A stretch of DNA of 33,717 nt from Lachnospiraceae bacterium (GTDB taxonomy: Bacteria > Bacillota > Clostridia > Lachnospirales > Lachnospiraceae). Positions 2,819 to 13,296 of this stretch are shown here, piece after piece. Within the stretch, counting starts at the first letter, position 1. Every line of letters begins with the position of its first letter. Both the position numbers and the translations under genes were made by a program. A model generated the notes under the pieces. The model saw only the letters and a program-made list of their open reading frames with translations, made no database searches and had not been told where the DNA came from. The DNA lies in NCBI GenBank assembly GCA_017449765.1, contig JAFTFE010000035.1, positions 1 through 33,717 on the forward strand. Reading direction: 5' to 3'.

Positions 2819-5800
2819 TTATTGCAATACTTCGAGTAAACCTTCATAGTCATAGCTTTCTGCGTATTTTTTTATCTCGGAAAAACGCTCTGTGTGAGCT
2901 TTAGGTATATCATAAGCTTTTATGCTTTCCATTATCCCGTCAAGCTTATCACAATCCATCTCCTCTGCCGCTTCACGTATGCCCTCATATACACTTTGCA
3001 TCAGAGACTCATCTAAAGCCGGCTTATCCGAAGTTTTTGATACATCTTCATCTCTTTTTGTAAATGCATTATCCAGTACTTCTTCAAAGCTTATATAATC
3101 CTTCATGAAAGACTCATGATTAGCATGTATATATTCTGCATCCTTTTCCTTACCTGCCATCTCGAGCTTTTCGGCAGACTCTGCAAGCTCCATGGCACCT
3201 ATAAGCTTTGCAGAGCTTTTTAAGGCATGCACCTTGATGGTATAATTATCCCAATCCTCATCAGAGTAATAGTTACTAATCTCCTTGGACTTTTTTTCGA
3301 TAGATTCATGGAATATCTTTAACACTGTTTCGAAGGACTCCTCGGAACCGCTGTTTTTAATTGCTATATCTCCGTTTATTCCTTCTATGCCTTCGTACCA
3401 CTTTCTTTCTGAAGCCATGCTATCTTTAGCTGCTTTATCTAAACCTTTTTTATCTGTATCTTTTTTATCTGCAGCTCCATCATATAAAGCTTCTTCATAC
3501 GAAGCTTCTTTAGCATTATCTTCCTCTGTATCCTCTTCATCATACAAGTCATAGTCATAATCATTTGCTTCATTTATCCTGTCAAAGAATGAACTGAAAT
3601 TATACTTCTGATCTGATTTGGTCATGTACAAAATTCCAAAGGTTCCCTCACCACAGTTTGTGCTAATACCTGCAGATGCTTTTTGAAAAATGATATGTTC
3701 AAATCTAACTATTTTTTTAAGCTCATCTTCTATCCATAGCAAATCTTCTTCATCCATTCCGGCATATGTAATAAATGCAAATGAAGTTTCAGGATAATCA
3801 TTTTTTGAAAAGACACTCTTTATATATTTTTCATAGCATTTTCTTGCACTTCCCATAAAAAGCTTACCAACCCTTAAGCCGTCATTTTTAGTCTCAAGCA
3901 TAGGTCTTAGCCAGAATATATTCATGATGCGATTCATGAAAGGACTTATTCTATCACGCCTTGCCATAACATCGGTTGTTTTTATAACAAAGCTGCATCT
4001 GATATGCTTCTTTGCCTCTTCGATTTCAGATATGATTCTCTCGACCGGAAGATTCTGGCTTGCAAGCCTTGCAGCATACATTACAAGTATACCGGTTGCA
4101 CTTGAAACACACTCTGAATTAATAATTGTTACATTTTCAAACACCTCGGCAGCTTTTTTTGCACGTTCATACTCATTGCTGTTACCCGAAGTAATGGTAA
4201 TAAATATCAGATGATGCGCCTTTTTTAATTCAGAAGAGAAAAAGCGTATGTATTCTTCTACTGTCGGTGCATCCGAGGATACAGGTCTTAATTCAGTACC
4301 CATATATCGGAGAATTTCTTCGGAATCAATATCAATATTATCGTAGAAGGTACCCTCCTCCGTATATATTTTACTCGGGATGATTCTAATCTGCATCTCA
4401 CTTTGTATATAACCCGGAATGTCAGCCATACTTCCTGTTGCAATTGCAACCGATCTCTTTTTGGAATATCCGGCTGCTGTATTCATAGAAGCTCCTGTCA
4501 TTTCAGTGACACCGGTTCTCACAATTTTTTCCTCCGGAAGGAATTTAAGAAGTTTGTCCTCTAACTGTAATCCTGATACAGGCTTTACCAGATAATCATC
4601 AAAGCCTGCATTGTTATAAAGCTCCATATTATCACTTCCGGCATTTGCCGTAAGTACGATAACAGGTACATTGGAATTCATTTCTCCCTTTTGGGTGGTT
4701 ATATTTTTATAACATTCTATACCATCCATTTCCGGCATAAGATGATCCATAAATATAACATCATACCGGCAGTTAAGAGTAAGTAAAAGAGCCTCTTGTC
4801 CCGACTTGGCCAGGTCTATGTTCATCCCGGTTCCTTCAAGCAGCTTCTTTTCCACTTCAAGATTCATCTCGTTATCATCAACAATTAAAATTCTCGCATC
4901 AGGTGCATGGAAGCTATGTGCAAATCTCTCTGCATTTGATATGCTGCCTGTACCGGATATATTGATATTACCTATGTGCTTTTCTGATGAAATTCCCTGT
5001 CCGAGTGTGACAGTAAAGGTTGAACCTTCAGAGTAAACACTGTTTACGGTAATCTCTCCACCCATCAATTCCACAAGCTGCTTAACTATCGAAAGTCCAA
5101 GTCCCGTACCCTCTATATGGCGGTTCTTCTCCTCATCCACTCTCTTAAATGTATCAAAAAGGAACGGAAGAGCTTCAGGCTTTATTCCTATTCCTGTATC
5201 GGATACTACTATCTTCAATAAAACATTTTCATTATCGGTTGTCTCACATTCCATATGTAAGCTGATGGAGCCTTCTTTGGTATACTTTACAGCATTATTA
5301 AGCAAATTAATAAGTATCTGTTTAATCCTTACCTCATCACCAAATAAAGTTTCAGGGACATCAGGATCGATATCAACATTAAATTTAAGTCCCTTTTCTT
5401 CTGTCTTAAGCCAAATCATATTAACGATTTCAGACAAAAGTGATGCCACATTATAGTTTACGGGAACTATATCCATTTTACCCGCTTCTATCTTGCTGAC
5501 ATCAAGGATATCATTTATAAGCGCCAAAAGAAGCTTACCGGCTCCCTGGATATTTCTTGCGTCCTTTTTGATTTCTTCAGATGCATCCTCCTGACGCAAA
5601 ATAATCTCATTCATTCCAAGCACTGTATTGATAGGAGTACGAATTTCATGGCTCATGCTGGAAAAGAAACGATTTTGTGAACGGTTTAATTCCTCGGCTC
5701 TTTTGGTCTCCTCTTCAGCACGCTTATTCTCATTTATGAACAGCATTTTCTGAAAACATACCACAGCGTATACTACAAAGCCGACAAGAATTACAGATAC

Positions 5801-6286
5801 AATCGCATCCTTAAAAAAGGCATCAAAATCATGTGTGTAAACGATTTCCGGATTGAAATAATATATAAGAAACTCTGCAAATGTTATCAAGCTTAGTATG
5901 GAAACCATGATTACACGCCATTTGCCGGACAGTATCAATCCTGCATACATATATGTTACGGCAAGCCAGAACACACCACCTCCCTTAGGACCTCCACCAA
6001 AGAAAAAGGTAATCGGCATTACAATAAAAACAAGAGCAGCGACCTGCAGCTTGCCTCCAAGCGACACCCTGTTGTGTCGTATGCACCATTTAGTGGTAAC
6101 GGGTACCGCTATAATCAATATGCCCAAAGCAACTGTTTCAACAGGATTTTCACCGATTGCTATATCACCTAACATTGCCAAAAACAAAGCTATATCACTT
6201 ATAACGGACATAAATGTAATCATATGCTGTTCAAAGCTGATATTGGGATTATGAATTCTGCTATAAAGGTCTTTAATTATACGCAT
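2819..6286 (-). CDS. Hybrid histidine kinase with receiver, DegV fatty-acid-binding domain and HPt
   Basis: An 1155-residue membrane phosphorelay protein. It has about six membrane segments (residues 24-181), HisKA with H213 (SHEIRTP), HATPase (N-box near 327-335, DTGIGI 363-368, GTGLGL 393-398) and a receiver (D470/D471, D514, T546, K568). Residues about 611-890 match the DegV/EDD fold: RSVAIATGSMADIP, an ITITSGNSNEY motif, and a C-terminal GEGTFGILY. DegV proteins bind fatty acids and supply them to FakA-type kinases; the canonical TDS start motif is TGS here. An acidic linker follows, then an HPt (H1020, KVHALKSS) and a 64-residue tail shared with the hydrogenase protein. The ATG overlaps the upstream gene's stop by one base (TAATG), so translation is coupled. 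DegV inside a hybrid kinase is very unusual and suggests lipid sensing (inference). Confidence 0.88.
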   Translation of the reverse strand: MRIIKDLYSRIHNPNISFEQHMITFMSVISDIALFLAMLGDIAIGENPVETVALGILIIAVPVTTKWCIRHNRVSLGGKLQVAALVFIVMPITFFFGGGPKGGGVFWLAVTYMYAGLILSGKWRVIMVSILSLITFAEFLIYYFNPEIVYTHDFDAFFKDAIVSVILVGFVVYAVVCFQKMLFINENKRAEEETKRAEELNRSQNRFFSSMSHEIRTPINTVLGMNEIILRQEDASEEIKKDARNIQGAGKLLLALINDILDVSKIEAGKMDIVPVNYNVASLLSEIVNMIWLKTEEKGLKFNVDIDPDVPETLFGDEVRIKQILINLLNNAVKYTKEGSISLHMECETTDNENVLLKIVVSDTGIGIKPEALPFLFDTFKRVDEEKNRHIEGTGLGLSIVKQLVELMGGEITVNSVYSEGSTFTVTLGQGISSEKHIGNINISGTGSISNAERFAHSFHAPDARILIVDDNEMNLEVEKKLLEGTGMNIDLAKSGQEALLLTLNCRYDVIFMDHLMPEMDGIECYKNITTQKGEMNSNVPVIVLTANAGSDNMELYNNAGFDDYLVKPVSGLQLEDKLLKFLPEEKIVRTGVTEMTGASMNTAAGYSKKRSVAIATGSMADIPGYIQSEMQIRIIPSKIYTEEGTFYDNIDIDSEEILRYMGTELRPVSSDAPTVEEYIRFFSSELKKAHHLIFITITSGNSNEYERAKKAAEVFENVTIINSECVSSATGILVMYAARLASQNLPVERIISEIEEAKKHIRCSFVIKTTDVMARRDRISPFMNRIMNIFWLRPMLETKNDGLRVGKLFMGSARKCYEKYIKSVFSKNDYPETSFAFITYAGMDEEDLLWIEDELKKIVRFEHIIFQKASAGISTNCGEGTFGILYMTKSDQKYNFSSFFDRINEANDYDYDLYDEEDTEEDNAKEASYEEALYDGAADKKDTDKKGLDKAAKDSMASERKWYEGIEGINGDIAIKNSGSEESFETVLKIFHESIEKKSKEISNYYSDEDWDNYTIKVHALKSSAKLIGAMELAESAEKLEMAGKEKDAEYIHANHESFMKDYISFEEVLDNAFTKRDEDVSKTSDKPALDESLMQSVYEGIREAAEEMDCDKLDGIMESIKAYDIPKAHTERFSEIKKYAESYDYEGLLEVLQ

Positions 6287-8330
6287 TAGTTTTCACCCCC
6301 ATTAACAAATTTGGCTGTTTCCGGCAAAACCCTTTTCATAACTCTTTCAAACTCAATTATATCTATTGGCTTTGCAATAAATCCGTCAAAGCCTTCCTTT
6401 ATAAACATTTCTTTTGCTCCGCTTAAAGCATTGGCAGTAAGTGCGACTATTATCGGTGTTCTTCCATCCGACAAAGCAATCTGCCTTATCTGCTTCATAG
6501 TCTCGACACCATCCATCTCCGGCATCATATGATCCATAAATATAATATCATAGCTGCCTGATTCGTATTTCCTGATAGCTTCCTTTCCACTCTCTGCCGA
6601 ATCAACAATCATCTTATAATCTCTGAAAAGCCCTGATGCAACCACAAGATTCATAGGCTCATCATCCACAACAAGAGCACTCACCCCAGGGAAATATATT
6701 TTTTCTTCCTGATTTGAATTAATATTATTATCTTCCTCACCATTAAGTATCCGTACAACAGGAAAAGCATACAGAGGTTTTTGCATTACCAACACACGGC
6801 TTCCGTCAGAAACCTTAAATCCTGCATCTGCCGATACCACAATTTTATAACCATCCCTTGATAATTGCTCTATCCAATCTGCTTCTGCCTCATATTCTTC
6901 CACTCCCATAAAGATATGAGATACATCCATTTCTTCCAAAAGATGCTCAAGCTCTTTTCTGTCACTCGCAGAGTAAAGCCTTGTTTTAAGACCGGTAGCA
7001 AGGTTGATTACCATATTTTTGTAGAAATCTCTTACTTCAGGTACCTTAAACTTGTCAAGTCTTGAATAGAATACAAGACCATCCTTCACATTGTCATTGG
7101 TCATAAGACAAGGAGACATATCTACTACCTTCTGCGGGATAGTAAGTCTTACAGTTGTTCCTTTTTTCTTTTCACTGTTTATCATTACAAAGCCGCCCAT
7201 TTTATGAACAAAGCCGTATACTATAGGCAGACCTATTCCGATACCTCCTGTGCTCCTGTTGCGTTTTTTATTTGCCTGATACATTCCTTTGGAAACACGC
7301 GCCATATCAGCACGGGTCATACCGATTCCGGTATCCGTAATCTCTATCGTCAGATTTACTCCCTGTTCATGATGCTCGGTAAAGATCTTTAAATTAATAC
7401 CGCCCTTTCTTGTAAATTTGACTGCATTGTCAATCAGGTGTCTAAACAATTTATGAAGCTTCCTTATATCTCCGTAAAGAACGGAAGGAGTTTCCGGAGC
7501 CAGATCTATGATAAGCTCAAGCTTACTGTCCTTATAAATTGAATTATAATTAGCTACAACATCATTGATAAGGGAAACACACATATAATTCTCTTCCTCA
7601 AGAACAAGCTCTTCCCTCTTTATCTCTGTATAATCCTGAATGTCTTCTATCTGATGAGCCAGTCTGATTCCTGCCTCTTTTATAGACGTAAGCTCATGGC
7701 TGTCATTATTTTTTTGCATAAGCGTTGTCATACCGCTTATAACATTTACGGGAGTACGTAATTCATGAGATACGTTAGACAGGAAATCCTCCATATCACT
7801 ATCATTTTTCAAAACGGATTCCTGCCATTTTTCTATCCTCTCACGTTCTGTATTCCTGTTACTTACGGTAATACGACTGAATACATACATAACAAGCACA
7901 GTACCCATATGATAGACTATCCTCATGGTATCAAAGGCACTCATATCAATCTGATTATTGGTATAAAGAAAATAGAACTGTATCAGCATAACTACTGCAT
8001 ATTCTATCAGAATCATATTAAGCATTATGACTTGATCAACAATATTAAATGTAGCAATAAAGAGTGCTGCGGACACTGAAAGATCAAAAAGACTTGTATC
8101 ATGGATGCCATGATAAAAAGCATAAAAGCAGCATAAAAGAAATACATCCACATTCTTGTCATGGAATTGGTTTTTTCTGTCAGATGAATCCACCATAAAA
8201 CCACTCCTGCGGCAAAAACCACCCAAGGCACCCAGAATTCCCAATCTCCGAAATAGTTTTGCAATATACAGGATATTCCTGCCAATGTGGTAATAATTAT
8301 AACAAGACGCTCTTTTCTAATGTCCTCCAT
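6286..8330 (-). CDS. Hybrid histidine kinase with pseudo-receiver and receiver, interrupted by a one-base frameshift
   Basis: Two overlapping frames form one gene. Frame A starts at ATG 8330, has a good site (AAAGGAG) and encodes membrane helices. Frame B carries everything from about 8118 to the stop at 6286. Restoring one T to the run at 8115-8119 (A5 on the plus strand) joins AAFMLF to YHGIHDTSLF and gives exactly 681 codons. The rebuilt protein has about six membrane segments, HisKA with H189 (SHELRTP), HATPase (N-box N302, DTGIGM, GGIGIGLP), a degenerate receiver at about 413-534 that lacks the phospho-aspartate but keeps KP at 518-519, and a full receiver at about 550-669 (D556/D557, D600, T632, K654). 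The break may be a mutation, an assembly error or programmed slippage on UUUUU. Without it, no membrane-anchored kinase is made from the natural start. Confidence 0.82.
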
Positions 8331-8350: not shown

Positions 8351-10996
8351 CTATTGCAATGCTTCCTGCACTCCGTCATAGTCGAAATTTTCAATACATT
8401 TTTTTATTTGTGAAAAACGTTCTGTCTCTGCTTCAGGCACCATATAATCGTTCATATTATCCATTATTTCATCAAGCCTGTCGCAATCCATCTCTTCTGC
8501 AGCAGCTTTAATGTCGGCATATATCTGCGACATCATAGCATCATCTGCCTCTTGTTTATCTGCATTATCTTTCTCTTCGTTATCACATATATCCTTAAAT
8601 AATTCTTTGACACTTATCAGGCTGTCAATGAACAGGGAATTGTTTTCAGATATAAAAGCCGTATTCTCAAGCTTTCCGGCATTTTCAAGCTTTTGCGCAT
8701 ACTCTCCCAGATTAATCGCACCTATAATTCTAAGCGAACTCTTTAAAGCATGAACCTTAATTGTATAATTCTTAATATCTCCCTCGTCCAAAAATGTTAT
8801 AAGCTCATTAATTTTATCCGAAAGAGTATCATAAAATATCTTTACAAGCGACATGTAGGAATTAATATCACCACTATTGTTTATTCCTGTTCTAACATCG
8901 ATTAAATCCGAATCAGAAAGCGCCTTGAGCGTATCCGGTAAATCATCCTCTGCAAAGTCGGAAGAATAATCCTCCTCATTAATCTCCTCAATACATATCT
9001 TATCCTTTGGAAGATACTTTATAAACATATCCTCCAGCTTGTTATAATCAACCGGTTTTGTAAGATAATCATCAAAGCCCTCTGATATATACTGTTCCCT
9101 CGCACCTGAGATGGCATTGGCAGTAAGGCATATAACCGGAGTGCTGTAATTAGGATTACCTTCCTTTGCTTTAAGCTCGTGCAGAGTCTCAATACCATCC
9201 TTTTCGGGCATCATATGGTCAAAAAACATAATGTCATATTTCTTTTTGTCCGTAAGTACCAAAGCTTCATCCCCACTTTGGGCAGTATCGATATTTAACC
9301 CGGTCTGCTTGAGCAGATTTTGGAATACCGTCAGATTCATAGGATTATCATCCATCGCAAGGACATCTGTATCTTTCGCCGTAAACTTTCTCCTATAGCT
9401 TCTGCTGCTTAAATTCTTATCAATGTCTGTAGACATAGTCTCCGTTTTACCTGACTCGATTTTTGAAAAATTAAGGAGGTTATCAACAAATCCGAGCAGC
9501 ATATCACCTGAACTTCTTATATTCTCTGAATATGAAGTGATATTCGGATCATTGCTCTCTCTTAAAATCATTTCATTCATACCAAGAACGGCGTTGATAG
9601 GGGTTCTTATCTCATGAGACATATTGGCTAGAAATTCCGCCCTTGTCCGGGCTGCCTCTTCAGATATAACCTTTTCAAGCTCGAGTTCGTGAACCATAGT
9701 CTTTTCATAATAGATACAGTTTTCCTTATGGTTAAAACCGTTATATATGGCAACTGCCATCTGCCGGCAATTATCATAACCACAGCAGGTACAGTCAATT
9801 TTTCTTGATTCCTCGGTTATCTTATTCATCGATAGATATATTTCTTCAAGCTGTTCTTCATCAGGAAGCTCATAACGACATTCCGCTGATCTGTCTGTAT
9901 ATCCCCTAAGATAATCAGAAAGTGAAAGATTTTCAAACTGCTTGTTATAGTTTTTAAGACGTTCATCAGGTGTGTCATATCTTGACCATGCATCACCGCT
10001 TTTTTCCTTCTTTGAAGACTCCCTTATATCCAACAACGCATAAAGCGCATCATCCGTATGTGATTTGTCAGGATTAACTGCCGTACCACAGATACATCCG
10101 TTTTCACAATTCAATGCATCTATAAATAAGAAAGGGGTCTTATCATGTTCTATGCGGTTCTTATTAATATGCATCCAGTCATAGAGATGCCTTTCCCCTT
10201 CAATCTGTCTTATATATACCTGATCTCCCAAAAACCAACGTACATTCTCGGCAAGTCCTCCCGGAGTAGGATAAAAGGAGCCGAGTCCGTACTCAATCTC
10301 ACTATGTGCGGCTTTTCCCTCTATGCCATGTTCCTTCACATAACGCATAAGGTGTTCAAAGGTAACATTGTACTGAACAAGCCCTGCATTGTGCTCATCT
10401 TCTATCTCAAGCTTCTTGGCAATACAAGGACTTATAAATGCAAATTTATCTGTTAATCCAAGCTCCTTACGTGCATATATTGCAGCGCACATAAGCGGAC
10501 TTTGTACAGGGAAAAGTTTAGGCAACAGTTCCGGAAGATATCTTTCGATATATGAAACCACAGCCGGACACGGCTGCGATATACCACCTAAGAAATTATA
10601 ATATTTGATATAGTTAAGATAACCCCATGTACATATATCCGCACCAAAGGAAACACTTATAATGCGGTTAACACCCATACCTTTAAGACCACCCAACACA
10701 CTCTCATACTCATCAGGGTAGTTAGCCTTAAACGCAGGTGCCAAAAGTAATGAAATTTTTTCTCCGTTTTTGAGATCATTAAAGAAACGCTCTGTGTCGT
10801 CTTCGAATTCACGAGCCTTATGAACGCAGACATCTATACAGCTTCCGCAGGCAACGCACTTGCTTCCGTCAACCTCAATACGTGCCCTGCCGTTTTCCTC
10901 CTTGGATATGCATGCTCCTATAGCACTGCACACCTTTATACATTTGTTACACCCAATACAATTATCATTTGTAAAAACTATACTGTTTTTTCCCAT
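8351..10996 (-). CDS. Sensory [FeFe]-hydrogenase fused to HisKA-receiver-HPt, lacking a HATPase domain
   Basis: An 881-residue soluble protein. Two [4Fe-4S] ferredoxin motifs (C13/16/19/23 and C47/50/53/57) precede a hydrogenase large-subunit domain holding the H-cluster motifs: QPCP with C143, SPCIAKK with C191, and NCENGCICG with C297 and C301. The proton-relay Cys of catalytic enzymes (CCP) is Pro142, as expected of sensory (group C, histidine-kinase-linked) members. A second Fe-S motif follows (C402, C405, C410, C427; PF04060-like). Then come HisKA with H461 (SHEIRTP), a receiver (D549/D550, D593, T625, K647), an HPt (H749) and the shared 64-residue tail. Between the end of HisKA (SKIESGK, 511-517) and the receiver there are only ~25 residues: the N, D and G boxes are absent. 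It should sense H2 or redox state but needs another kinase for phosphate. The ribosome-binding site is weak. Confidence 0.9.
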   Translation of the reverse strand: MGKNSIVFTNDNCIGCNKCIKVCSAIGACISKEENGRARIEVDGSKCVACGSCIDVCVHKAREFEDDTERFFNDLKNGEKISLLLAPAFKANYPDEYESVLGGLKGMGVNRIISVSFGADICTWGYLNYIKYYNFLGGISQPCPAVVSYIERYLPELLPKLFPVQSPLMCAAIYARKELGLTDKFAFISPCIAKKLEIEDEHNAGLVQYNVTFEHLMRYVKEHGIEGKAAHSEIEYGLGSFYPTPGGLAENVRWFLGDQVYIRQIEGERHLYDWMHINKNRIEHDKTPFLFIDALNCENGCICGTAVNPDKSHTDDALYALLDIRESSKKEKSGDAWSRYDTPDERLKNYNKQFENLSLSDYLRGYTDRSAECRYELPDEEQLEEIYLSMNKITEESRKIDCTCCGYDNCRQMAVAIYNGFNHKENCIYYEKTMVHELELEKVISEEAARTRAEFLANMSHEIRTPINAVLGMNEMILRESNDPNITSYSENIRSSGDMLLGFVDNLLNFSKIESGKTETMSTDIDKNLSSRSYRRKFTAKDTDVLAMDDNPMNLTVFQNLLKQTGLNIDTAQSGDEALVLTDKKKYDIMFFDHMMPEKDGIETLHELKAKEGNPNYSTPVICLTANAISGAREQYISEGFDDYLTKPVDYNKLEDMFIKYLPKDKICIEEINEEDYSSDFAEDDLPDTLKALSDSDLIDVRTGINNSGDINSYMSLVKIFYDTLSDKINELITFLDEGDIKNYTIKVHALKSSLRIIGAINLGEYAQKLENAGKLENTAFISENNSLFIDSLISVKELFKDICDNEEKDNADKQEADDAMMSQIYADIKAAAEEMDCDRLDEIMDNMNDYMVPEAETERFSQIKKCIENFDYDGVQEALQ

Positions 10997-11075: not shown

Positions 11076-11852
11076 CTACTTCATTTTATCAAACTGAGCT
11101 TTCAAGGAATTTAAAAGATCCTCTCTGGTAGTGGACTTAAGGATATATCCGTTAGGCTTAAGTTCCAACACCCTTGCAACTCCCTCACGTGAGCCAACCC
11201 CCGTAAGGAATACCACAGGAATTTTCTCCAATTCAGGCTCCTGTCTTAACATCTGAAGTACCTGTGGTCCGTCCACTACAGGCATCTCATAATCAAGCAG
11301 GATAAGATCCACCTTATTTTTCATAAGATATGTAATAGCCTGCATACCCGCAGTCACAATACCGACATTATAATCATCCTTAATCCATTCTCTTACCATC
11401 CTTGCATAAGAAGGATCATCATCAACGATGAGGATCTTTTTCTTTTCCCCGGTATCAGAAGTTTTATTTATTTCATCCTTAACAATCTGAGCTATCAGAT
11501 TAATATCTATAGGTCTGTCAAGCCACTTATAACTTTTGAGAAACGGCAGCTTTAAAATAAGCTCATTATGATACCTCTTCTCACCGATAAGTATCATATT
11601 GCGATTATTATTAATAATAGTATGGCATATTTCCGTAAAGGTAGAAAGCTCCAATTTGTCATCCGCAATCTCATCCGGAAGATATACGATATATATTGAT
11701 TCTTTTTGAGTATATCCCTTTAGTTTTTCTATATCATCTACAACAGATTCTACATTAAAATTAAGTTCTGAAAGTTTTTTCTCAATTCCCTTGGCTACCA
11801 CACTGTACTGAAACTGTACAATAATAATGTTTGTGCTGTTAGCTTCACCCAT
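11076..11852 (-). CDS. Two-receiver response regulator (degenerate receiver plus active receiver), no output domain
   Basis: The start at ATG 11852 (258 residues) is preferred because AAAGGTGG precedes it at good spacing; the GTG at 11864 lies inside that site. Residues about 8-128 look like a receiver fold without the acid pocket, ending in LDRPID where an active receiver would have KP. Residues about 138-258 are a complete receiver with D144-D146, phospho-acceptor D187 (LLDYEMP), T217 and K239. There is no DNA-binding or enzymatic domain, so it likely works as a phosphate shuttle, a sink or a protein-interaction switch. It lies between the REC-GGDEF and hydrogenase genes and is a natural acceptor for the HPt domains encoded downstream (inference). 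Confidence 0.83.
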   Translation of the reverse strand: MGEANSTNIIIVQFQYSVVAKGIEKKLSELNFNVESVVDDIEKLKGYTQKESIYIVYLPDEIADDKLELSTFTEICHTIINNNRNMILIGEKRYHNELILKLPFLKSYKWLDRPIDINLIAQIVKDEINKTSDTGEKKKILIVDDDPSYARMVREWIKDDYNVGIVTAGMQAITYLMKNKVDLILLDYEMPVVDGPQVLQMLRQEPELEKIPVVFLTGVGSREGVARVLELKPNGYILKSTTREDLLNSLKAQFDKMK

Positions 11853-11946
11853 AATCAATACCACCTTTTCTTGTTATCTTTAATCAATAGTGAAATTATA
11901 CCCTCGTTGTCAAATTCTTTTACCTTTTTAAATTATCTTAAATCTT

Positions 11947-13296
11947 TTAACCTTCGGAAAAGCTCATATATTCCTTAATAAACTCTACTCTTATTTTGTC
12001 CTTATACTCCTCCTCATTCCACGTATTCATTATCCGCTCTACAATCACATCGACATATTCATCCGTAAGTCCGGGAAGCAGCGCCAAAAAAAGGTTCTTC
12101 TTATGCTGCATCATAATGTCACATTTTCTGATATTTTTTTGAAGTATCAAACCAAATCTGTCAATAGCATCCTTAAGCATCTCTTCATCCTGTGATTCTT
12201 TAGTCGAAACTGAGAAGAATAGCTTTGTCGCTACATCCTTATTTCGTTTCATATATCTGATTATGAAACGATATGCCCAGGTAAATGCATCCAGATCTAC
12301 CCACAAGGCTCCTTCGGATGTATTTCTCTCCTCAACAATTTTTGTGATAATTGCAAGCTCATTCTTTAAAGTTTCATTACCCCTTAAAGTTTCATCAAGC
12401 TTTGAATTATATATTGAACAGCTGTGCTTTCCGTTCTTTTTTACATAATATAATGTCTTATCCGCCAATTTGAATAAGCTGTCATAATCATTATCATTTT
12501 CAGATACCACTACACATCCCACTGAAACACCTATATCAATACTAAAGTCACTTCCCATCAGTAAGATACATTTATCCCTCAGCTGACTATTAAGCCGCTT
12601 TGTAAAGTTGACAGTAACCCCCTCCTCAGCAAGGTGAGTGAAAAACACGAGAAATTCATCCCCACCGATTCGCCCCAATATATCTTCGGCTCCTGTATTG
12701 CTTCTAACGATATCTGCAAAAGAAGAAAGTACCTTATCACCCATATCGTGTCCGTATATATCATTGATAAGCTTGAAATTATCCAAGTCAATTACAGACA
12801 GTACACCTGTCTCTTTCTTGCACAGCTCTGCCATCTTTTTGTTAGTGGCAGCCTTATTAAGAAAGCCTGTCAATCCGTCAACTGTAGCCTCTTCAGTCAG
12901 GGTTTCGATTTTCTTATTTTTCGTAATGATATTGCGTATACGCCACAGCAGGCTTTCTTTATTAAATGGCTTACGGATAAAATCAGACGCTCCGATTTCC
13001 AGACCTTTTTGTTCAGACTCAATGTCTTCATTTCCCGTAAGAAATATAACCGGTGTCCTGTTACGTTCTTCCCTGTCCTCGAACTCCCTAAGCTTTTCAT
13101 AGGTTTCAAAACCATCCTGTTCAGGCATAAGGATGTCAAGCAAAATAAGGTCCGGATCGTTCTTTTCCATAAATGCAAGTAATTCACGTCCGGACTTCAC
13201 ACAGCTAACCTTTATATTCTGTTCTATCAAGATGTTTCGTGCATTTTTAAGACTAAGCACGTCATCATCAACCACAACTACCCAACTATCATTCAT
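11947..13296 (-). CDS. Receiver-GGDEF diguanylate cyclase response regulator
   Basis: Residues 5-125 form a receiver (D10-D12, D54 in LLDILMP, T87, K109). A GGDEF domain follows at about 133-300 with DGLTGFLN (140-147), DLDNFKLIND (170-179) and an intact GGDEF at 211-215, so it should make c-di-GMP when phosphorylated. The RxxD inhibitory site normally just upstream of GGDEF reads GAED, so product inhibition through that site is unlikely. Residues about 305-449 resemble the degenerate GGDEF-like module seen at the C-terminus of many Lachnospiraceae cyclases. ATG 13296 has GAGGA at good spacing. It is the first gene of the signalling block and the only recognisable enzymatic output in it. The palindrome at 13411-13427 lies upstream. 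Confidence 0.9.
   Translation of the reverse strand: MNDSWVVVVDDDVLSLKNARNILIEQNIKVSCVKSGRELLAFMEKNDPDLILLDILMPEQDGFETYEKLREFEDREERNRTPVIFLTGNEDIESEQKGLEIGASDFIRKPFNKESLLWRIRNIITKNKKIETLTEEATVDGLTGFLNKAATNKKMAELCKKETGVLSVIDLDNFKLINDIYGHDMGDKVLSSFADIVRSNTGAEDILGRIGGDEFLVFFTHLAEEGVTVNFTKRLNSQLRDKCILLMGSDFSIDIGVSVGCVVVSENDNDYDSLFKLADKTLYYVKKNGKHSCSIYNSKLDETLRGNETLKNELAIITKIVEERNTSEGALWVDLDAFTWAYRFIIRYMKRNKDVATKLFFSVSTKESQDEEMLKDAIDRFGLILQKNIRKCDIMMQHKKNLFLALLPGLTDEYVDVIVERIMNTWNEEEYKDKIRVEFIKEYMSFSEG

Follow-up and report, generated by a model that had tools for sequence, protein, structure and literature searches.

The gene at 8351-10996 in the window (the whole 33,717-nt stretch of Lachnospiraceae DNA analysed here) encodes a receptor with a hydrogenase-type sensor and the three phosphate-accepting domains of a phosphorelay, and raises the question of how such a protein would obtain its phosphate with no ATP-binding domain of its own.

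A hydrogenase-type receptor without an ATP-binding domain

The open reading frame on the minus strand encodes 881 amino acids, and Pfam places ferredoxin, Fe_hyd_lg_C, FeS, HisKA, Response_reg and Hpt along the chain in that order:

8351..10996, minus strand: HATPase-less HydS receptor, 881 aa (open reading frame, Pfam; identical layout in the G024 orthologue)
10814..10969, minus strand: ferredoxin-type 2x[4Fe-4S] region, residues 10-61 (Pfam Fer4_7, 12-61, and Fer4_21)
10085..10747, minus strand: [FeFe]-hydrogenase large-subunit (H-cluster) domain, residues 84-304 (Pfam PF02906; alignment to solved hydrogenases)
9710..9802, minus strand: extra Fe-S cluster motif, residues 399-429 (PF04060, 21.9 bits, slightly below the curated cut-off of 23)
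9449..9643, minus strand: HisKA, residues 452-516, phosphoacceptor H461 (Pfam PF00512; conservation)
9365..9448, minus strand: 28-residue HisKA-receiver linker, residues 517-544, the HATPase gap (alignment with HATPase-bearing L071 and L072)
9026..9364, minus strand: receiver domain, residues 545-657, D593 (Pfam PF00072)
8666..8848, minus strand: HPt domain, residues 717-777, H749 (Pfam PF01627)

The preliminary description of this DNA had named H461, D593 and H749 as the relay residues of HisKA, receiver and HPt, and all three were found at those positions. It had also held that HisKA and receiver lie about 25 residues apart and that no ATP-binding domain fits between them. The gap is indeed short, its measured length being 28 residues against the 111 positions of the HATPase_c profile, and HATPase_c was found neither by Pfam over the whole chain nor by our own profile. 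The identical Pfam scan detected HATPase_c in both neighbouring kinases and is therefore able to see the domain; a HATPase hidden elsewhere in the receptor chain was ruled out, Pfam giving no match. Of the hallmarks of a histidine kinase, the receptor thus has HisKA with its phosphoacceptor histidine and lacks the HATPase_c ATP-binding domain, and, as in a split kinase, it is a phosphoacceptor protein without an ATPase. With no HATPase, the receptor should not phosphorylate itself. Automatic annotation would probably name such proteins kinases, a function that is impossible for them alone.

The ATPase domain was probably lost from an intact, selected gene

An 881-aa orthologue, 95% identical and of equal layout, is present in another species of the genus, G024 (L070; Lachnospiraceae bacterium RGIG4472, from the omasum of roe deer), with the five-gene order of the window. 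Because this separate species genome carries the 881-aa layout, a one-off assembly error is excluded, and a strain-specific deletion was ruled out in the same way. Searching for orthologues that lack the domain had been proposed in the preliminary description; besides G024, HydS receptors without HATPase were found in G416 and G458 (another genus) and in L073, so the absence is not peculiar to this strain. Between the window and G024, the receptor gene carries 100 synonymous and 45 nonsynonymous changes (omega 0.099), and its HisKA 7 synonymous and 2 nonsynonymous changes, which are small numbers. The window receptor, HisKA included, is under purifying selection. Similarly, the comparison of G416 with G458 gave an omega of 0.076 for the gene and 0.045 for HisKA (15 synonymous and 3 nonsynonymous changes).

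The HydS receptor of L072 has the order HisKA-HATPase-receiver-HPt, with HATPase_c scored by Pfam, stands ahead of equivalent companion and DegV kinases, and is 65% identical overall to the window receptor. Since this syntenic relative retains HATPase, the domain was probably lost from the window receptor and not primitively absent. The recent in-frame deletion that had been offered as an alternative is thus probably right as to loss and wrong as to a recent, single-strain event. That such a loss left a decaying gene, a non-functional relic, is very improbable: a HATPase-bearing relative in the equivalent place and an adjacent companion gene that looks frameshifted would suit this explanation, but the 881-codon frame is intact in two species at an omega of 0.099, the G416/G458 pair (0.076) behaves likewise, and the architecture recurs with its relay residues retained.

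Thirteen HydS-HisKA proteins were read, five without HATPase and eight with it (one of the eight, from G344, is cut at a contig end). Judged by eye, the window protein keeps the start of the pre-HATPase stretch, L073 the post-HATPase stretch and G416 parts of both, and these differing junctions suggest separate loss events. In a tree of the HydS domain, for which long branches were warned of, a single HATPase-less clade was not rejected (p-AU 0.40), and several losses within HydS alone were therefore left unsupported by that tree. A tandem of two receptors, each with HATPase, forms a single 1929-aa protein at L071 (8237-14026); the first looks Cache-type by eye, and the second carries HydS. 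The idea that HydS relatives in the genus are mostly kinases was rejected for the eight read, which by eye appear to end in an MCP signalling domain (L005, L006, L010, L013, L015, L016, L017 and L019, with a Pfam check on L005).

The receptor lies in a conserved kinase cluster

Four further genes make up the cluster with the receptor:

2819..6286, minus strand: DegV kinase, HisKA-HATPase-receiver-DegV-HPt, 1155 aa, candidate partner (Pfam)
6286..8330, minus strand: companion kinase, HisKA-HATPase-receiver, no HPt (open reading frame, Pfam, comparison with G024)
11076..11864, minus strand: receiver protein, 262 aa (Pfam; relatives in other cluster copies)
11947..13296, minus strand: receiver-GGDEF (diguanylate cyclase) protein, 449 aa (Pfam; relatives in other cluster copies)

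The DegV domain of the kinase is presumably of the fatty-acid-binding type. The companion gene consists of an open reading frame at 6286-8244 (652 aa, TTG start) and another at 8025-8330 in a different frame, the latter matching the N-terminus of the 681-aa companion kinase of G024. Relative to that copy it appears frameshifted near the N-terminus, through either a real break or an assembly error; the G032 companion (L064, 7817-9879) is likewise in two pieces, of 560 and 144 aa. Beside the cluster, at 962-2816 on the plus strand, lie an HTH-receiver gene and a LytS-type kinase gene, which are perhaps a further output of the cluster. Relatives of these genes occur near other cluster copies or a HATPase-less receptor in L064, L065, L202, L205 and L209.

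At least 20 close relatives of the companion kinase were found in 397 family genomes, a lower bound with three candidates scored per genome (set defined by at least 591 bits and open frames of 676-719 aa; the next match, at 546 bits, had a longer frame). In 19 of these 20 loci the companion kinase gene is followed by one for a DegV kinase; the remaining locus runs into a contig end. A receptor is present in the cluster at eight of the 20, HATPase-less in three (G000, which is the window genome, G416 and G410) and HATPase-bearing in five (G344, G062, G195, G394 and G390); G416 additionally has a HATPase-bearing one. Among the 12 loci without a receptor, those of G311, G252 and G292 have a contig end near or within the cluster, where a receptor could be missed. 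Beyond the 397-genome sample, clusters in G024, G458 and G032 have a receptor without HATPase and those in L071 and L072 a receptor with it. The receptor-free loci and the mixed receptors together indicate that the core pair of kinases can stand without a receptor and that the receptor's ATPase is optional. Relatives of the receiver protein were found in 18 of 27 loci and of the receiver-GGDEF protein in 17, the window and two G410 loci that overlap being counted among the 27.

The preliminary description had considered the HisKA sequences of the adjacent kinases close to that of the receptor. This was borne out for the DegV kinase, with 47% identity, and not for the companion, with 22%. Four further clusters gave 41-50% for the DegV kinase and 29-31% for the companion, and an adjacent HATPase-bearing kinase shares 69%, 36% and 28% HisKA identity with the receptor in G252, G064 and G216, respectively. 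An identity of 47% within one broad family falls short of demonstrating pairing. Among the titles and abstract openings listed by our literature searches we found no DegV-kinase cluster, no kinase-DegV fusion and no HATPase-less hydrogenase receptor.

HATPase-less HisKA-receiver proteins recur across the family

At least 17 distinct HATPase-less HisKA-receiver proteins were found in Lachnospiraceae. They occur in at least four of 37 genomes of the window's genus (G000, G024, G032 and G012), at least ten of 397 family genomes (G000, G416, G252, G410, G062, G292, G203, G064, G216 and G422) and at least four of seven genomes of the G416 genus (G416, G458, G460 and G456), with a further protein in L073. 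G000 and G416 were each found twice, and the counts are lower bounds, seven candidates having been scored per family genome. HATPase_c was absent by Pfam in all 17; G228 was dropped as a candidate, its HATPase being present (L147). The N-terminus is HydS in five and 7TM in G062. It is Cache-like in G032, G410, G252 and G012, above the Pfam cut-off only in G012, and for the remaining proteins Pfam reported no sensor family. Our own profile found HPt in 15 of the 17, the exceptions being the short proteins of G460 and G456. Pfam scored ten of these 15 above its cut-off and three below (G252, G203 and G216), with no match at E 0.001 in L073 and G064. The two short HisKA-receiver proteins, with no sensor and no HATPase, lie at L169 2282-3013 (G460) and L170 4925-5695 (G456), in related genomes. 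At L152 8505-11183 (G203), a HATPase-less HisKA-receiver-HPt protein is extended by another receiver and an HD domain; the gene overlaps that of a HATPase-bearing kinase, and the HPt scores below the Pfam cut-off.

A tree of the 15 HPt-bearing HATPase-less proteins with 71 HATPase-bearing ones requires ten changes. One loss for all HATPase-less proteins was rejected (AU test p 0.0045; the tree was quickly built and has long branches, and the group tested was defined by the trait itself).

A same-strand HATPase-bearing kinase lies within 6 kb of 10 of the 17 HATPase-less genes, compared with seven of 20 controls (p 0.19), the controls being HATPase-bearing hybrids hand-picked among the most similar and not at random; counted once per lineage, the figures are 8 of 14 against 7 of 20 (p 0.30). 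Within 300 bp they are 7 of 17 and 2 of 20 (p 0.052). Among the seven controls counted at 6 kb, four have a DegV kinase in that range. No same-strand HATPase-bearing kinase was found for the other seven HATPase-less genes: L073, despite nearly 10 kb of flank on each side, G062 and G422 (flanks of 4.8-7.0 kb), and G292, G012, G460 and G456 (shorter flanks). As it is not significant, neighbour-kinase enrichment was set aside as proof of a partner.

The phosphoacceptor helix is kept and the ATPase-side stretch decays

Agreement with a consensus of 142 HATPase-bearing HisKA was scored for 14 HATPase-less lineages, the near-duplicates G024, G458 and G456 being dropped. In the phosphoacceptor helix it was 241/280 (0.86) for HATPase-less and 2366/2840 (0.83) for HATPase-bearing proteins, and in the first part of helix 2 it was 57/70 (0.81) and 598/710 (0.84), respectively. 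Towards the missing ATPase, the end of HisKA agreed at 73/182 positions (0.40) in HATPase-less proteins against 1454/1846 (0.79) in HATPase-bearing ones. The phosphoacceptor helix is therefore as conserved as in complete kinases and the ATPase-side stretch decays; the search for relatives used the window HisKA as query, which biases towards its retention, and that query also held the decayed end. The phosphoacceptor histidine is present in 16 of the 17 proteins (Gln in G456), compared with 99% of HATPase-bearing ones, and is followed by Glu in 15, Asp in G410 and Lys in G292, while R464, T465, P466, N468 and G472 are conserved in all 17. Equally, the receiver Asp is kept in 17/17 and the HPt His in 14/15, being lost in G064 (the HPt of G422 and the receivers of G460 and G456 were scored by eye).

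These residues bear on two other explanations. The HisKA could serve only to hold dimers or hetero-oligomers together, H461 staying unphosphorylated while a partner kinase is controlled allosterically, as by RetS. There is precedent in RetS, which controls GacS through a heterodimer and whose own phosphorelay residues are dispensable or not fully required (PMC4866733). For the receptor we regard this as improbable, as all three relay residues are nearly always retained and control of the RetS type would not need an intact relay.

Alternatively, the receptor might be a phosphotransfer or phosphatase subunit, its receiver and HPt taking phosphate from the HPt-less companion in the manner of RcsC and RcsD and its sensor-controlled HisKA draining or dephosphorylating a receiver. 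As in an RcsD-like arrangement, an HPt-bearing receptor stands beside a HisKA-HATPase-REC companion with no HPt, and in the Rcs system phosphate goes from RcsC to the RcsD HPt (PMC7418988). Retention of the HPt His in 14 of 15 proteins fits, as does that, as H461-E462-T465, of the HE/DxxN/T motif that is linked to phosphatase activity (PMC3591291); such activity has also been raised for archaeal HisKA proteins without HATPase (PMC5847659). Nevertheless, we think this explanation unlikely, though it is the one we would weigh most seriously against dependence on partner kinases: a histidine kept in 16 of 17 proteins goes beyond what a pure phosphatase should need, and the DegV kinase already has an HPt.

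The sensor may read redox state in hosts without HydG

The cluster cysteines C143, C191, C297 and C301 are conserved in 32 of 32 aligned HydS. At the position of the usual proton-path Cys, the alignment places P142 in the window receptor; this position is altered in sensory hydrogenases (PMC10055695). The maturases HydG and HydF were both found above cut-off in G000 and G024. Across the family, HydG was found in 39 of 80 HydS-holding genomes and, at E 1e-60, not in the other 41; among the 63 HydS genomes with a completeness of 90% or more and a contamination of 5% or less, it was not found in 32. Because HydG was not found in 41 of 80 genomes, H2 sensing cannot be assumed for the HydS family. 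In genomes without HydG, 18 aligned HydS keep the four cluster cysteines and K194; in these hosts, HydS either lacks the [2Fe] part and acts as an Fe-S redox sensor or is matured differently. G416 and G458, which hold HATPase-less HydS, gave no HydG and no HydF above cut-off, and in hosts such as these the sensor may read redox state rather than H2.

A receptor probably fed by partner kinases

Retention of H461, D593 and H749 under selection argues for a working relay fed from outside, and our preferred reading, to which we give a probability of roughly 0.6 on sequence evidence, is that the receptor depends on partner kinases for its phosphate. It would be a phosphorelay plug-in to the conserved adjacent kinase pair that has lost its own ATP-binding domain. 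The Fe-S/H-cluster part would sense redox state or H2 and alter the HisKA helices of the receptor. The phosphate would most economically come from a neighbouring kinase, either passed to the receiver and HPt or, in the simplest scheme, placed on H461 in trans by the ATPase of the DegV kinase after its HisKA pairs with that of the receptor. That H461 is phosphorylated in this way, within a heterodimer, is a tentative proposal that we place a little below an even chance. Phosphate would then pass from H461 to D593, H749 and the receivers of the cluster, and the output is likely to be c-di-GMP made by the receiver-GGDEF protein. The Lys beside the His in G292, the His lost in G456 and the possibly broken companion gene of the window count against dependence on a partner.

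A broader and rather doubtful possibility is that the companion and DegV kinases form a shared hub with interchangeable sensors, and that receptors have shed their ATPase repeatedly since the hub phosphorylates HisKA in trans. If true, receptor and kinase would divide the work of one phosphorelay between them, as chemoreceptors do with CheA, and the hydrogenase-type redox or H2 sensor would be one plug-in. The cluster could also offer a concrete route from such a sensor to a c-di-GMP output in ruminant-associated bacteria.

Comparison with known systems

The preliminary description had called the arrangement a new way of coupling sensing to a relay. In general form the idea is known, split or incomplete HisKA kinases without HATPase being already in print (PMC3591291, PMC5847659). 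A count from SMART gives 1556 of 42417 HisKA proteins without HATPase, EnvZ keeps activity in vitro with HisKA and HATPase on separate chains, and CheA3 of Rhodobacter sphaeroides is phosphorylated only with CheA4 present (all PMC3591291). The receptor resembles these split kinases in having phosphoacceptor and ATPase on different proteins and in keeping HE/DxxN/T. However, CheA3/CheA4 are CheA-type proteins whose trans action is shown biochemically (PMC3591291), whereas here a sensor-HisKA-receiver-HPt protein beside kinases is known from its gene. Archaeal HisKA proteins without HATPase share the conserved His, and AF_1472 combines REC with HisKA (PMC5847659); an Archaeoglobus family is also described in PMC1183210. 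Those described in PMC5847659 have PAS/GAF domains, whereas the window protein is bacterial, with an HPt, a hydrogenase-type sensor and a kinase cluster.

Like sensory (group C) [FeFe]-hydrogenases, HydS (PMC10055695, PMC6776011), the receptor has the cluster cysteines, an altered proton-path position and a signalling module. It differs from them in that the module is a HATPase-less phosphorelay, and a Pfam scan found no PAS domain in it.

RcsD is not known to have a receiver. In the RcsC/RcsD system, as might occur here, a receiver-bearing kinase gives phosphate to the HPt of a kinase-like partner, but RcsD keeps an inactive HATPase (PMC7418988), while the window receptor has none and has a receiver and an intact phosphoacceptor His. 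Hybrid or unorthodox kinases of the GacS, LadS and BarA type have HisKA, receiver and HPt in equal order, and LadS donates phosphate to an HPt in another kinase (PMC4866733); the receptor, being HATPase-less, should differ in lacking autokinase activity of its own.

Phosphate exchange between different full-size receptors is known for the proteobacterial LadS/GacS and RcsC/RcsD. To our knowledge, such exchange is known from few proteobacterial cases. The Lachnospiraceae provide a natural series, in which one and the same cluster has a receptor with or without the ATPase and HATPase-less receptors occur in more than one lineage, so that trans-phosphorylation is open to testing by simple reconstitution.
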